Positions 46,748 to 50,919 of a stretch of 50,919 bases of DNA are shown piece by piece. The notes below the pieces were generated by a model, which searched no databases, was not told the DNA's origin, and saw nothing but the letters and a program-made list of their open reading frames with translations. Position 1 is the first letter of the stretch, and the number at the start of each line of letters is the position of its first letter. The DNA is from Aeromicrobium sp. (GTDB taxonomy: Bacteria > Actinomycetota > Actinomycetes > Propionibacteriales > Nocardioidaceae). The stretch spans positions 1 to 50,919 of the forward strand of contig JALRCA010000204.1 of NCBI GenBank assembly GCA_023257515.1. Reading direction: 5' to 3'. The translations under genes were made by a program, and so were the position numbers.

Positions 46748-47029
46748 TCAGTCGCCGGGGCGGTCGGCGACCGGCGTGACGTGGGCCACGGCGGCCTGCA
46801 ACGACGCGAGGAGCGCCTCGACCCGCGCCGCTCCGGCAGCCGGTCCCGCCAGGTGGACCTCGACGACGTCCTCGGCCACGGCGGCGTGGGCGACCTGCTC
46901 GGCCGTGGCCCCGGTCCCGAGGTAGACGACCTCGAGGCCGTCGTCACGGAGGCGGCGCGCGGTCGCGAGGACGGGCACGACGTCCTCGCCCGTCGAGGCC
47001 ACCAGCACGCGTCTCACCACGTCGGACAT
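46748..47029 (-). CDS. Small B12-binding-domain-like protein
   Basis: A 93-residue single domain with the core of the cobalamin-binding fold of mutases: RRVLVASTGEDVVPVLATARRLRDDGLEVVYLGTGATAEQVAHAAVAEDVVEVHLAG. The DxHxxG motif that supplies the cobalt-ligating His is absent (TGEDVVP in its place), so base-off B12 binding is not expected. It might be a fold relic or a protein-interaction domain. It lies 147 bases upstream of sucC on the same strand, next to succinyl-CoA metabolism, and is divergent from the M23 gene. Confidence 0.7.
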   Translation of the reverse strand: MSDVVRRVLVASTGEDVVPVLATARRLRDDGLEVVYLGTGATAEQVAHAAVAEDVVEVHLAGPAAGAARVEALLASLQAAVAHVTPVADRPGD

Positions 47030-47041
47030 GGTCCCAGATCA

Positions 47042-47057
47042 TGTGAATCGGCTCACG
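47042..47057. promoter_or_regulatory. CRP/GlxR-like site
   Basis: TGTGA-ATCGGC-TCACG matches the TGTGA-N6-TCACA consensus of CRP/GlxR-type cAMP regulators at 9 of 10 arm positions. It lies 12 bases upstream of the B12-like gene start and 60 bases upstream of the M23 gene's -35 box. Assignment rests on the motif only. Confidence 0.5.
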
Positions 47058-47116
47058 AGCGGCGCCCGATTCTCGCGGGGATCCCCGCACGGGAGCGTCG
47101 GACGTGTGAACTTCGG

Positions 47117-47145
47117 TTGGAGCCGGACCCGACGTCCTCTAGACT
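47117..47145 (+). promoter_or_regulatory. M23 gene promoter
   Basis: TTGGAG (47117-47122) and TAGACT (47140-47145) with a 17-bp spacer. The predicted start is near 47152, giving a leader of ~28 nt that contains CGGAGG (47167-47172). This is one of the few conventional leadered promoters visible in the window. Confidence 0.65.
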
Positions 47146-47179
47146 CGACGGGTCCTGCCCACCACCCGGAGGTTCCTGC

Positions 47180-47953
47180 GTGAGTTCGTCCGCGCCCCGA
47201 CGCCGTCTCGACGTGCGTCAGGCGACCCCACGGGGTGGCCGCCGAGCGAGTGCCCGGCCAGGACGACGTCGTCGCAGCTTCCGCCCGACCCCGGCGATGG
47301 TCGGTGCGCTGGCGCTGGTGGTCGCGGGTATCGGCACGGCAGCGTTCTCGTCGCACTCCGATCGCGACACGCTCCGCGCGAGCTACCAGACGATCTCGGC
47401 CAGCTACTCCGGTGACGGCAACGAGGTCCAGACGACCCGCAGCTTCGATCGCGGCCAGCTCGAGCAGCAGGCCAAGCAGCAGGCCGAGCAGAAGCTCGCC
47501 GCGCAGGCACAGACCAAGCAGAAGGTCGAGGCCGCGGCCCGGCAGCTCGAGAAGAACCAGTGGGTCCTCCCCGTCACCGGCTACCACCTGACGGCGCGCT
47601 TCGGCCAGAGCAGCGGCCTCTGGGCCCGCACCCACACGGGGCTCGACTTCGCCGGTCCGTCCGGATCGACGATCGTCTCGGTCGCTGCGGGCACGGTCAA
47701 GGAGACCGGCTACGAGGGCGCCTACGGCAACCGCACGATCATCACGCTCGAGGACGGCACAGACATCTGGTACTGCCACCAGAGCCGCATCACGGTCCAG
47801 GCGGGCGAGCGCGTCGGCCCCGGTGACGTCATCGGCTACACCGGCTCGACCGGCAACGTGACCGGCCCCCACCTCCACCTCGAAGTGCACCCCGGCGGCG
47901 GCGACCCCGTCGATCCCGAGCCCGTGCTCCGCGACCACAAGGTCAACCCCTGA
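47180..47953 (+). CDS. Membrane-anchored M23 (LytM) peptidoglycan endopeptidase
   Basis: Cell-wall peptidase held in the membrane. 257 residues: basic cytoplasmic tail 1-37, membrane helix ~39-57, coiled coil ~92-125 (QLEQQAKQQAEQKLAAQAQ), then a full LytM domain with zinc ligands H152 and D156 (HTGLD), H200 and H231/H233 (HLHLE). All catalytic residues are present, so it is probably active. GTG 47180 follows CGGAGG at 7 nt. Its place near pcrA and sucCD is conserved in actinobacteria. Convergent with pcrA; the DUF559 element separates them. Confidence 0.92.
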   Translation: MSSSAPRRRLDVRQATPRGGRRASARPGRRRRSFRPTPAMVGALALVVAGIGTAAFSSHSDRDTLRASYQTISASYSGDGNEVQTTRSFDRGQLEQQAKQQAEQKLAAQAQTKQKVEAAARQLEKNQWVLPVTGYHLTARFGQSSGLWARTHTGLDFAGPSGSTIVSVAAGTVKETGYEGAYGNRTIITLEDGTDIWYCHQSRITVQAGERVGPGDVIGYTGSTGNVTGPHLHLEVHPGGGDPVDPEPVLRDHKVNP

Positions 47954-47970
47954 CCCTCCCCTCCCCGGGC

Positions 47971-48035
47971 CCAACTCCCCGCGATTTGTCGAGTTCGATC
48001 GCAATAGGGAGTGCTTTTCGAGCGCAAACTCGTCA
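47971..48035 (+). repeat. Left 65-bp terminal inverted repeat
   Basis: Begins CCAACTCCCCGCG 17 bases after the M23 stop and ends ..AACTCGTCA. It differs from the inverted right arm at four positions. Internal pairing ACTCCC/GGGAGT and GCGAT/ATCGC can form a hairpin that may also terminate the M23 transcript. Confidence 0.85.
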
Positions 48036-48043
48036 GATCGCCA

Positions 48044-48090
48044 TCCACAGGCTCGGCTGGCGGCACGCTGGTGTCCACAGGCGTGCCGCC
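48044..48090 (+). repeat. Hairpin and TCCACAGGC direct repeats upstream of the DUF559 gene
   Basis: Perfect 10-bp arms GGCGGCACGC (48059-48068) and GCGTGCCGCC (48081-48090) with a 12-nt loop. TCCACAGGC occurs twice, at 48044-48052 and 48074-48082, 30 bp apart. GTGTCCACA around the second copy is one base from the DnaA-box form TTGTCCACA. Lies between the left arm and the gene start. Confidence 0.6.
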
Positions 48091-48131
48091 GGCCTCTGTC
48101 CGGCCGGCTGCACGACGGCTGGGCTGGGTGC

Positions 48132-49061
48132 ATGCCCGCCACCCGCGCCGTCCCGCCGCAGCTCTGCGGGCGCCCCGTCACCCGCGAGGAGCTGCTCACC
48201 GCCGGCCTGTCCTGGGCCTACGTCCGCGCGCACTTCACGGCACTCTTCCGTGGCGTGTGGTGGCACGGACCGCCGCCCGAGAGTCTGGTTCCCTGGCTGC
48301 ACGCCGCGCTGAGGATCCTTCCGCCAGGATCGCTCGTCAGCCACGTGAGCGCACTCCAGCTGCGAGGCATCGACCTCGGCGGCCGGTTCCCGGTGCACTT
48401 CTCGACCCGATCGAGTCACCACACGGTCCGCGACGGGCTCGTCCTGCACCGGCGGATCGGGACGATCTGGCTCGACGAGGTGCGCGGCCTCGCCACCACG
48501 ACGCCGGAACGGGCCTTCGTCGACAGCGCGACGCTCCTGGGTCTGCGGGACCTGGTCCGGGCGGGTGACGCGCTCGTGCACGCCGGGCTCGTGACCCTGG
48601 ACCAGCTGCGCGACTTCTGCGTCCAGAGCCATCTCGACGGCGTGGTCCGCGCCCGCCGGGCCGTCGCGCTCGTGCGCGAGGGCGTCGAGTCGTTCCTCGA
48701 GACGGACGTGCGACTCATCCTGGTCTTCGCCCGTCTACCGGTCGACGGGTGCAACGTCGACATCCTCGACGACGCCGGGCGCTTCGTCGCGCGCGGCGAC
48801 ATCCTGTTCAGCCGCTTCAAGGTCTTGGTCGAGTACGACGGGTGGCACCACGAGCGCGACGCCCGCCAACGCCAGAAGGACCACCTGCGCCGTGAACGAC
48901 TCGAAGCCGCCGGCTGGATCGTCGTCGTCGTCACGATCCAGGACATGAAGGACCCGCTCGGCATCGTCCGGCGCGTCGCCGCAGCACTGGACCGCCGCGG
49001 CTACCGCGGCCCGCGCCCCGTCATGAGCGTGACGTGGGGGTCGTGGTTCGGCGCGAAATGA
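48132..49061 (+). CDS. DUF559/Vsr-like endonuclease-domain protein with AbiEi-like N-terminus
   Basis: 309 residues. The N-terminal ~100 resemble the winged-helix start of AbiEi-type antitoxin/DUF559 proteins (VTREELLTAGLSWAYVRAHF..LFRGVW). The C-terminal ~120 show a PD-(D/E)xK/Vsr-like nuclease core: E190 (ESFLETDVR), D223 (RGDILF), E234 and D236 (VLVEYDGWHH), then RQRQKDHLRRERLEAAGWIVVVV. The potential active-site residues are kept, so activity is plausible. Such genes are often multicopy in actinobacteria (general knowledge). No toxin partner is adjacent. Its TGA lies in the right inverted repeat. Confidence 0.75.
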   Translation: MPATRAVPPQLCGRPVTREELLTAGLSWAYVRAHFTALFRGVWWHGPPPESLVPWLHAALRILPPGSLVSHVSALQLRGIDLGGRFPVHFSTRSSHHTVRDGLVLHRRIGTIWLDEVRGLATTTPERAFVDSATLLGLRDLVRAGDALVHAGLVTLDQLRDFCVQSHLDGVVRARRAVALVREGVESFLETDVRLILVFARLPVDGCNVDILDDAGRFVARGDILFSRFKVLVEYDGWHHERDARQRQKDHLRRERLEAAGWIVVVVTIQDMKDPLGIVRRVAAALDRRGYRGPRPVMSVTWGSWFGAK

Positions 49062-49123
49062 CGAGTTCGCGCTCGAAGAACACTCCCTATCGCGATCGAA
49101 CTCGACAAATCGCGGGGAGTTGG
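49059..49123 (-). repeat. Right 65-bp terminal inverted repeat
   Basis: Opens with the TGA of the DUF559 gene and ends ..GGGGAGTTGG, 14 bases before the pcrA stop. Inverse of 47971-48035 with 61/65 identity. Confidence 0.85.
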
Positions 49124-49137
49124 ACTCGAGGTGGGGG

Positions 49138-50586
49138 TCAGAGCTTGGTGACGGGGGCGTAGCGCAGGAGGAGGCGCTTGACGCCGGCGGAGCCGAAGTC
49201 GACGCTCGCGACCGCGTTGTCGCCGCCGCTCTCGAGAGCGACGACGGTGCCGAGGCCGAAGGAGTCGTGGGTGACGCGGTCGCCGGGCTCGAGCGAGGGG
49301 ACCTCGCGCTTGGACTTCGAGCGCGCCGCGACCGCCTGGGAGCGGAACGCCGGGGCCGACGACGAGCGCGACGTGGCCGTCATCGACCGGCTCCACGACG
49401 TGGGGGCCTGGGCCTCGCGGCGCCAGTCGACGAGGTGCTCGGGCAGCTCGTCGAGGAAGCGGGACGCCGGGTTGTAGCTGGGCGCACCCCACGCCGAACG
49501 ACTCGCGGCGCGCGTGACGTACAGCCGTGACCTGGCGCGCGTGATACCGACGTAGGCCAGGCGGCGCTCCTCCTCGAGCTCGGAGGAGTCGCCCAGCGAG
49601 CGCATGTGCGGGAACACCCCCTCCTCGAGGCCCGTCAGGAAGACGACCGGGAACTCCAGGCCCTTGGCGGTGTGCAGCGTCATGAGCGTGACGACGCCGT
49701 CGCCCTCGTCGGGCACCTGGTCGGCGTCGGCCACGAGCGCGACCTGCTCGAGGAACGCCTCGAGCGAGCCCGGCGTCAGGTCCTCGGCCTCGACCTGGAC
49801 CGCGGGCAGATCGCCCTCGGGCTCGTCGACCGTGGCCGCATTGACGACGAACTCGCGCGCCACCGCGACGAGCTCGGCGAGGTTCTCGACGCGCGTCTCG
49901 TCCTGCGGGTCACGGCTCTGCTCGATCGTGGACAGGTAGCCCGACTGCGTGAGCGCGGCCTCGAGCACGGCGTCGGCCGGCTCGCCCGAGGCGGCGAGGT
50001 CCATGAGGCCCTGGACGACCGTGGCGAACTCCGCGATCGCGTTGCGCGAGCGCGTGGCCAGGTCGTCGACCTCGTCGACCCGCTGCATGGCCTGCCAGAA
50101 GGTGATCCCCTCGCGCGAGGCGAACCGCTCGAGCGCCGCCTGCGCGCGGTCGCCGATGCCGCGCTTGGGCTCGTTGACGATGCGGCGCAGCGAGACCGTG
50201 TCGGCCGGGTTGACGAGGATGCGCAGGTAGGCGAGCGCGTCCTTGATCTCCTTGCGCTCGTAGAAGCGGACGCCCCCGACGACGCGATAGGGCAGGCCGA
50301 CGCGGATGAACACCTCCTCGAACACCCGGGACTGGGCGTTGGTGCGGTAGAAGACCGCGACGTCGGCGGGCCTGGCCCGCCCCTCGTCGGTCAGCGTGTC
50401 GACCTCGTCGGCCACGAACTGGGCCTCGTCGCGCTCGTCGTCGCCGACGTAGCCGACGATCTTCTCGCCGTCGCCCTCGGCGGACCACAGCTTCTTGTCC
50501 TTGCGCCCCTCGTTGCGGCTGATGACGGCGTTGGCCGCGGTCAGGATCGTCTGCGTGGACCGGTAGTTCTGCTCCAGCAGCACGGT
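49138..50586 (-). CDS. pcrA: UvrD/PcrA superfamily-1 DNA helicase, N-terminus lost at the chimeric join
   Basis: 3'-5' helicase for repair and for removing RecA or stalled complexes. About 483 helicase residues remain: [14 protein letters not shown] (motif III/IV area), [51 protein letters not shown] (motif V) and [15 protein letters not shown] (motif VI), plus the C-terminal Tudor-like segment [20 protein letters not shown]. Motifs I and II (Walker A and B, ~250-300 residues) are absent, replaced in frame by an RpiA N-terminus. This is an assembly product; the intact gene should exist in the source genome. Confidence 0.88.
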
Positions 50587-50600
50587 GGAGGCTTCGGAGC
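50580..50600. other. Probable right chimeric junction
   Basis: On the minus strand ribose-5-phosphate isomerase sequence (..[12 protein letters not shown]) changes within a few codons to PcrA ([10 protein letters not shown]..). Both families are cut in conserved interior regions. Base composition falls on the rpiA side. A short stretch that could belong to either gene (GCCTCCACCG on the complement) may have caused the join. Confidence 0.85.
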
Positions 50601-50754
50601 TGGACACCGCGCCCTTGATCTGGTCTTTCATGGTGGCCAAGGCGTCGATGAATTTGTTCACCGTCGAGCCCGTGCCCACGCCGACGATCTCGCCAGGGAC
50701 AACGTATTTCAGGGCGGCTTGGCCCACCAGGGCTTTGAGTTCGTCTTGGGTCAT
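50587..50754 (-). pseudogene. rpiA: Ribose-5-phosphate isomerase A, N-terminal fragment
   Basis: First ~56 residues of RpiA (ribose-5-P/ribulose-5-P, pentose phosphate pathway): [35 protein letters not shown] and the SSSEAST turn. The wording is that of Burkholderiales/Comamonadaceae enzymes, not actinobacteria. Start ATG 50754; the in-frame ATG at 50805 is less likely. Fused in frame to pcrA only through the junction. Divergent from the pyrD start, an order seen in Comamonadaceae. Confidence 0.85.
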
Positions 50755-50859
50755 GAAAGGGGCTCGGTTTGGGAGTGAAAAAAGACAGGCCGGGGTTTGC
50801 GACAATCAGGGCAACCGATTCAAACGCCGCAGACCTCTGCGCCAGCCCGGAATTATCCA

Positions 50860-50919
50860 ATGTCCCTGATCCCTTACGCCCTCGCCCGCTCGTTTTTGTT
50901 CAAGATGGACCCTGAAGAG
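50860..50919 (+). CDS. pyrD: Dihydroorotate dehydrogenase (quinone), first 20 codons
   Basis: MSLIPYALARSFLFKMDPEE is the start of class 2 PyrD of Burkholderiales (pyrimidine synthesis). The frame begins at ATG 50860 and runs off the window end, so only 20 residues are visible. It supports a beta-proteobacterial source for the right end together with the divergent rpiA. The ~105 bases between the two starts are AT-richer than the rest of the window. Confidence 0.75.
   Translation, partial: MSLIPYALARSFLFKMDPEE

Follow-up and report, generated by a model that had tools for sequence, protein, structure and literature searches.

A DUF559 nuclease gene enclosed by its own dispersed palindromes in Aeromicrobium: a candidate repeat-and-enzyme element

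A small gene for a predicted nuclease in the soil actinobacterium Aeromicrobium sp. lies between two inverted copies of a long DNA palindrome that is also found at 14 further places in the same genome; related genes carry other palindromes, and between some close species the unit from palindrome to palindrome appears to be swapped as a block. Of 54 loci of this gene family 43 are flanked by inverted repeats, compared to 1 of 187 other ORFs, and the palindromes diverge along with the protein. The association between enzyme and repeat is well supported, whereas cleavage of the palindrome by the protein is inferred. No description of such an element was found in our searches of the open-access literature, which lacks most subscription journals, and it looks like an undescribed kind of repeat-and-enzyme element.

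The window, i.e. the whole stretch of DNA analysed here, comprises 50,919 nucleotides (assembly GCA_023257515.1, contig JALRCA010000204.1, positions 1 to 50,919). Its relevant features are as follows.
46781..47953 (+), left neighbour, an M23 peptidase ORF (start codon not settled; family name from reading), convergent with pcrA
47971..48041 (+), upstream arm, a 61-bp palindrome (halves 47981-48002 and 48020-48041) of the GCGATTTGTCGAGTTCGATCGC family, with 10 more matching bases on its outer side
48044..48050 (+), first TCCACAG motif, just inside the upstream arm
48074..48080 (+), second TCCACAG motif, 30 bp further on
48132..49061 (+), nuclease gene, 309 aa, with an AbiEi-like N-terminal part and a predicted Vsr / I-Bth0305I-like (DUF559) nuclease domain at residues ~185-291
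49053..49123 (-), downstream arm, inverted copy of the palindrome (halves 49053-49074 and 49092-49113), holding the last codons and the stop codon of the gene
49138..50600 (-), right neighbour, the C-terminal part of pcrA (name from reading)
At about 50,600 the pcrA ORF turns into the start of another protein, an RpiA-like N-terminus, and the contig therefore looks chimeric in its last stretch (50600-50919).

The first-pass annotation of this region had described two 65-bp inverted arms, identical at 61 of 65 positions, around a single DUF559/Vsr-like nuclease gene, and this observation is confirmed. An inverted-repeat search returned 47958-48041 and 49053-49136, 84 nt with 88% complementarity, and the 65-nt core (47971-48035 and 49059-49123) differs at four positions; the TGA of the gene (49059-49061) is indeed the first triplet of the right core. 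Two corrections are required. The edges, claimed to be abrupt, are softer because similarity continues to 84 nt, and the unit within each arm is a 61-bp palindrome of two 22-nt halves starting 39 nt apart (47981-48041; 49053-49113), whose right copy reaches 6 nt into the gene before the stop codon. The arms had also been proposed to fold internally like REP sequences; taken alone this fold is modest (DNA z-scores -1.0 to -2.7), because the two halves of these arms differ in the inner stem. A search for structured RNA families gave only a sub-threshold snoRNA match. The acidic residues proposed as the nuclease core, E190, D223, E234 and D236, are invariant in 12 aligned proteins.

A uniqueness of the arms to this locus had been named beforehand as grounds for rejecting a mobile unit, and the arms are not unique. 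A search of the same genome with the arm returned hits on 11 other contigs, at six of them on both strands of the same place, and a half-site scan of these loci together with a pattern search gives the 14 places besides the two arms, with the halves 38-39 nt apart wherever both were scanned. One copy starts 4 nt after a tRNA-Leu gene, one 11 nt after a tRNA-Gly gene, and several follow stop codons. The two arms resemble each other over their whole length (88%), whereas the best other long matches are 79% and less. In 49 Aeromicrobium genomes (designated by G numbers, G000 being the genome of the window; individual loci are designated by L numbers) the half-site, with up to three mismatches, occurs 22 times in G000, once each in G020 and G026 (the same 3-mismatch string) and in none of the other 46; the reversed-pattern control gave 0.

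Relatives of the protein lie in 63 of 118 genomes searched at E <= 1e-20, the window genome included, and many of these genomes hold several copies; 11 named relatives come from Aeromicrobium records and one from 'actinobacterium LLX17'. For 54 distinct loci, the window included and ten duplicates removed (locus L031, for which no hit was obtained, was not taken in), we compared the 300 bp before with the 300 bp after the gene, and 43 contain an inverted repeat scoring above 22, the 95% point of 200 mismatched upstream/downstream pairings (median 13; maximum 98); 11 loci do not pass. Twenty regions were picked by hand from five genomes. Of 188 ORFs tested in 400 kb of G026 only two exceed the same score, one of them the DUF559 gene at 608228, so a chance inverted repeat is rejected by these control ORFs and by the mismatched pairings; a second DUF559 gene of that stretch was hidden by an overlapping ORF and not tested. 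Of the 43 loci, 38 combine a clear hairpin in the repeat with an intact protein (of the 54 genes, 2 lacked an intact protein over 200 aa and 14 more lacked a strong inverted repeat with a clear hairpin). The arm sequence differs from gene to gene but is alike on both sides of a gene; close relatives mostly share an outer GATTTG-like motif, and a distant clade has GCGGTG-like motifs. In these 38 genes protein distance and arm similarity go together (Mantel r -0.40, 0 of 5000 permutations), although shared loci and relatedness inflate the test.

Three palindrome families sought in the 49 genomes lie almost only where a cognate gene exists. The second family, CCAACTTTTGAAGCGTTGCG, gives 22, 21, 11 and 4 hits in G026, G035, G019 and G023, in each with hits on both sides of a DUF559 gene by coordinates (the arms were read in three), 1 hit in G001 and 0 in the other 44, with 1 control hit in all. 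The third, GAGATTTGCGGCCTCATGCACC, gives 28 hits in G000, whose second gene, on contig C173, carries it, and 8, 2 and 1 in G012, G029 and G043, whose genes carry similar palindromes; 44 genomes have none. The exception so far is G011, with 7 half-sites of the third family although the two of its four matched genes whose arms were read are not cognate. A further family in G017 and G041 gives 55 and 59 half-site hits, with controls of 0. A de novo scan of 400 kb of G026 lists solo members of several of these families among 40 hairpins, the rest being terminator-like or inside coding sequence by eye; one other hairpin repeat (CCTTGGGCTTGTCG-like), at G026 535864 and 545366 (L093, L094), is not linked to any DUF559 gene seen here.

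Palindromy is kept by paired changes. We aligned 22 hairpins of the G017/G041 family (those for which loci were returned, out of 114 half-site hits; one is a gene's own arm). Columns 1-9 and 18-23 are nearly constant (column 4-54 breaks in 4 rows), whereas columns 10-17 vary with compensation: 40 cells are changed on both sides (shuffled 25.4, 0 of 500 as high), and covariation is 0.186 against 0.121 shuffled and 0.028-0.073 when slid. The count of pairs with a two-sided change is less striking (79 of 500 shuffles reach it), columns 11 and 12 are unpaired in half the rows, and the shuffles do not control for relatedness of copies.

The solo palindromes turn over slowly. Between G017 and G041, which are about 92% identical, 12 of the 25 palindromes listed for G017 lay inside the stretches examined and 10 of these had both flanks mapped; 8 are shared and 2 are absent from G041. 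At 482933 the other genome has a short spacer after the same stop codon, and three G041 palindromes have other sequence at the matching place in G017. These presence/absence sites show no evident target duplication, and the comparison does not tell gain from loss. Four gene-sized indels between the two genomes were inspected as possible moved nuclease units and read as ordinary genes.

The genes themselves occupy about eight fixed loci; 45 of the 54 fall in eight syntenic groups (grouped by hand), and no whole unit was caught jumping to a new site. At the M23-pcrA junction, read in 30 of the 48 genomes with a pcrA match, 6 genomes have the gene (one, G011, in opposite orientation), 1 has a decayed gene still enclosed by both palindromes (G027, L141), showing that the arms outlive the gene, 15 have a spacer of 11-129 bp, 1 has a solo palindrome of another family (G015), 2 have tandem arrays of short repeats in place of the cassette (G018, L114; G034, L139), 1 has other coding sequence (G014) and 4 gave no M23 match. 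No target duplication was evident at this junction. In a tree of 51 proteins the copies at this junction need 3 changes of the label (shuffled mean 9.3), and they are therefore clustered but not a single clade.

Where flanks are similar the cassette is either about as similar or much more different. G026 and G035 have 95% and 92% protein identity at two loci but 57% at the M23-pcrA locus, with flanks at 87 and 91%; L051/L073 have flanks at 93 and 95% and protein at 65%; L068/L078 have flanks at 90-91%, opposite orientation and protein at 56%. G017 and G041 have 93.6 and 92.0% at two loci (dN/dS 0.135 and 0.137) and 54.2% at a third (0.489), where flanks are 85-97% in 150-bp windows and identity drops to 52-67% between the arms. 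Empty sites that never coincide with the arm edges had been named as a second ground for rejection, and replaced cassettes do end at the arms. In 60-bp windows of four such pairs the drop falls between about -240 and -130 before the gene and identity is back by +50 to +110 after it, where the arms lie, and the G017/G041 profile provides a fifth case. In two control pairs with similar cassettes identity stays high except for dips in the arm windows (62% and 43-40%), so arms change fast even without replacement; replacement rather than steady fast divergence is our inference from this bimodality. G026 also keeps a solo palindrome (667044), 84% and 80% identical to the arms of the cassettes that G020 and G035 hold at the locus where G026 now has a different cassette, as if left behind, and by eye another matching solo palindrome lies at 596057; for the present G026 cassette's own arms no copy was found in the 400 kb.

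A Pfam search gives DUF559 and MTES_1575 in 12 of 12 proteins (E <= 0.01; for the window protein DUF559 is above and MTES_1575 below its cut-off) and no transposase family, PADLOC AbiEi models match 12 of 12, NCBIfam gave no family, and a PDB sequence search with the alignment found nothing. The AlphaFold model (pLDDT 88.9, pTM 0.85) matches I-Bth0305I (3r3p, Z 12.3 over 96 residues, rmsd 2.3), NGO0050 (Z 10.9) and Vsr (1cw0, Z 9.7) over residues ~185-291, and AbiEi (6y8q, Z 8.8) over residues 3-182; the latter has an rmsd of 5.9, near the middling level of the method, though Foldseek gives E 1.2e-4. H239 and H240 are invariant in the 12 proteins alongside the four acidic residues; the residues were not mapped one by one onto 3r3p, which leaves open whether the full EDxHD active-site pattern is present. 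In two ortholog pairs, the G017/G041 loci above, dN/dS points to purifying selection. Across the phylum, 70 of 296 genomes match a search with the alignment. Of 30 loci read, 16 exceed 20, the 99% point of 300 mismatched pairings (maximum 22); two of the 16 are from the genus, leaving 14 of 28 outside it. The pairing thus extends beyond Aeromicrobium but is not universal, or is missed by the simple test.

We consider it more likely than not that this is a palindrome-bounded nuclease cassette with a cognate family of dispersed palindromes, functionally like a REP/RAYT pair but with an unrelated enzyme. Sequence comparison shows that the unit is arm, gene and inverted arm with arms that are ~60-bp palindromes, that different genes carry different palindromes, each copied from a few to about 30 times in the same genome (between genes as far as read) and absent from most other genomes, that protein and palindrome diverge together, and that in several close pairs of genomes the unit differs as a block, once inverted, at a fixed locus with edges at the arms. 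The mechanism, on the other hand, is inferred, as neither binding nor cutting was measured: the AbiEi-like part would read the palindrome, as a dimer on duplex DNA or on an extruded hairpin, the Vsr / I-Bth0305I-type domain would cut it, and repair of the break from another copy would spread palindromes to new places and let one cassette overwrite another at the same locus in a homing-like gene conversion. I-Bth0305I, of the same fold, dimerises on a target of nearly 60 bp (PMC3943268), the size of these palindromes. Palindromes downstream of genes may act as terminators or RNA-stabilising hairpins as a side effect. The first-pass interpretation, a transposon-like or RAYT-like unit in which the nuclease takes the place of the transposase, is thus supported in part: the RAYT-like idea is strengthened, whereas simple transposition is not shown. 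A bolder reading, about as likely as not, is that these AbiEi-Vsr fusion nucleases form a second, independently evolved class of REP-type element spread through Actinomycetota, each nuclease lineage homing through its own ~60-bp palindrome code, spreading palindromes through the genome and overwriting, even flipping, rival cassettes at a handful of fixed chromosomal sites.

The nearest described systems are the RAYT/REP pairs (REPtrons), in which the enzyme gene is flanked by two inverted palindromic repeats, cognate repeats are dispersed, presence of gene and repeats goes together, both diverge together and several families occur per genome (PMC2817692; PMC3733652). These features recur here, with the exception of G011. 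However, the enzyme is not an HUH Y1 tyrosine transposase; the palindromes, of about 57-66 bp, lack a GTAG or CGTC foot and by eye begin with GATTTG-like, AACTTTTG-like or GCGGTG-like motifs; copies number from a few to about 30 rather than more than 100; and cassettes are replaced as blocks at fixed loci. The EDxHD homing endonuclease I-Bth0305I and Vsr share the predicted nuclease fold, but the gene is not in an intron or intein, it is flanked by rather than interrupting its putative target, and its N-terminus is AbiEi-like; block replacement at the arms is compatible with homing but indirect, site-specific cutting not having been assayed. With Vsr repair endonucleases only the fold was compared, and T:G mismatch nicking next to a Dcm-type methylase was not examined. 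The AbiE type IV toxin-antitoxin systems share the N-terminal ~180 residues, but here a nuclease domain is fused on and no second gene lies between the arms; the neighbours read as an M23 peptidase ORF and pcrA, both convergent on the gene, and no profile search for the AbiEii nucleotidyltransferase was run. TIR transposons likewise have one gene between inverted repeats, and block replacement ends at the repeats, but each arm here is itself a whole palindrome and the loci are mostly fixed; no transposase lies between the arms and no target-site duplication was evident, yet the compared genomes are diverged, which leaves membership of this class undecided.

Among the alternatives, a host-serving regulator or nuclease is possible but unlikely. 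AbiEi antitoxins bind inverted repeats at their own promoter, and the palindromes could be operators, terminators or chromosome-structuring sites that spread only by ordinary duplication and are kept by selection; the AbiEi-type N-terminus, the position of several palindromes directly after stop codons or tRNA genes and the purifying selection agree with this. Yet a copy also lies downstream of the genes, more copies lie far away, the families are lineage-specific, orthologous sites lack the palindrome in the 92%-identical relative at 2 of 10 places, and cassette replacement at the arms is not expected of plain operators. It is more doubtful still that the gene serves conflict or defence, as a nuclease with self-marking palindromes exchanged under diversifying selection like restriction specificity modules, with dispersed palindromes as by-products. 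The allele-like turnover at fixed loci (protein identity of 92-95% at two loci and 54-57% at another within one genome pair, with flanks near 90%) and the AbiEi matches in a defence library speak for it, but the unit has no partner gene, dispersed cognate palindromes have no obvious role in such a system, and a search of plasmid and phage records found only 4 plasmid records, all under 60% identity, and no phage record, which also rejects spread on plasmids or phages.

That the enzyme acts on RNA hairpins made from transcribed palindromes, in RNA processing or stability, is improbable. Several palindromes follow genes, pairing is kept by compensating changes, and Vsr-like RAP domains of FASTKD4 and mitoribosomal proteins are among the fold matches, though we did not take the mitoribosomal ones as functional evidence; the best fold matches are DNA endonucleases, the acidic core is invariant, and RNA processing does not explain flanking of the gene, genome-specific spread or block replacement. 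Least likely of all, despite the REP-like anatomy, is that a separate HUH/RAYT transposase moves the palindromes and the nuclease genes merely happen to lie among them: no Y1_Tnp (PF01797) match was found in the window genome, which is 87.7% complete, while 5 of 14 control genomes gave matches (other genomes were not searched for it), and palindrome and nuclease match gene by gene.

In the papers examined, REP sequences with a dedicated enzyme were tied to HUH tyrosine transposases, and the CGTC families have no known enzyme (PMC3733652). Here an uncharacterised protein family, DUF559 fused to an AbiEi-like part, is tied gene by gene to its own dispersed palindromes. This gives a testable function to genes present in several copies in many of these genomes, supplies dozens of natural protein/target pairs for working out a DNA-recognition code for ~60-bp sites, and lets one ask whether enzyme-plus-palindrome elements arose more than once.

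A putative regulatory motif, TCCACAG, lies upstream of the gene in 41 of 54 loci (shuffled mean 0.5, maximum 3; 0 of 54 downstream), often in pairs, 22 of 25 neighbouring TCCACA pairs being 28-30 bp apart. It resembles the DnaA-box core. As it occurs in only 4 of 30 loci of the phylum sample, we do not regard it as an essential part of the element. A further palindrome family with CCGCTGAG-type feet encloses a distant DUF559 gene in G000 (L030) and is the solo palindrome at the M23-pcrA junction of G015 (L136), with CCCGCTGAGTGTGACG in both, and a similar one lies in G026 at 827312.
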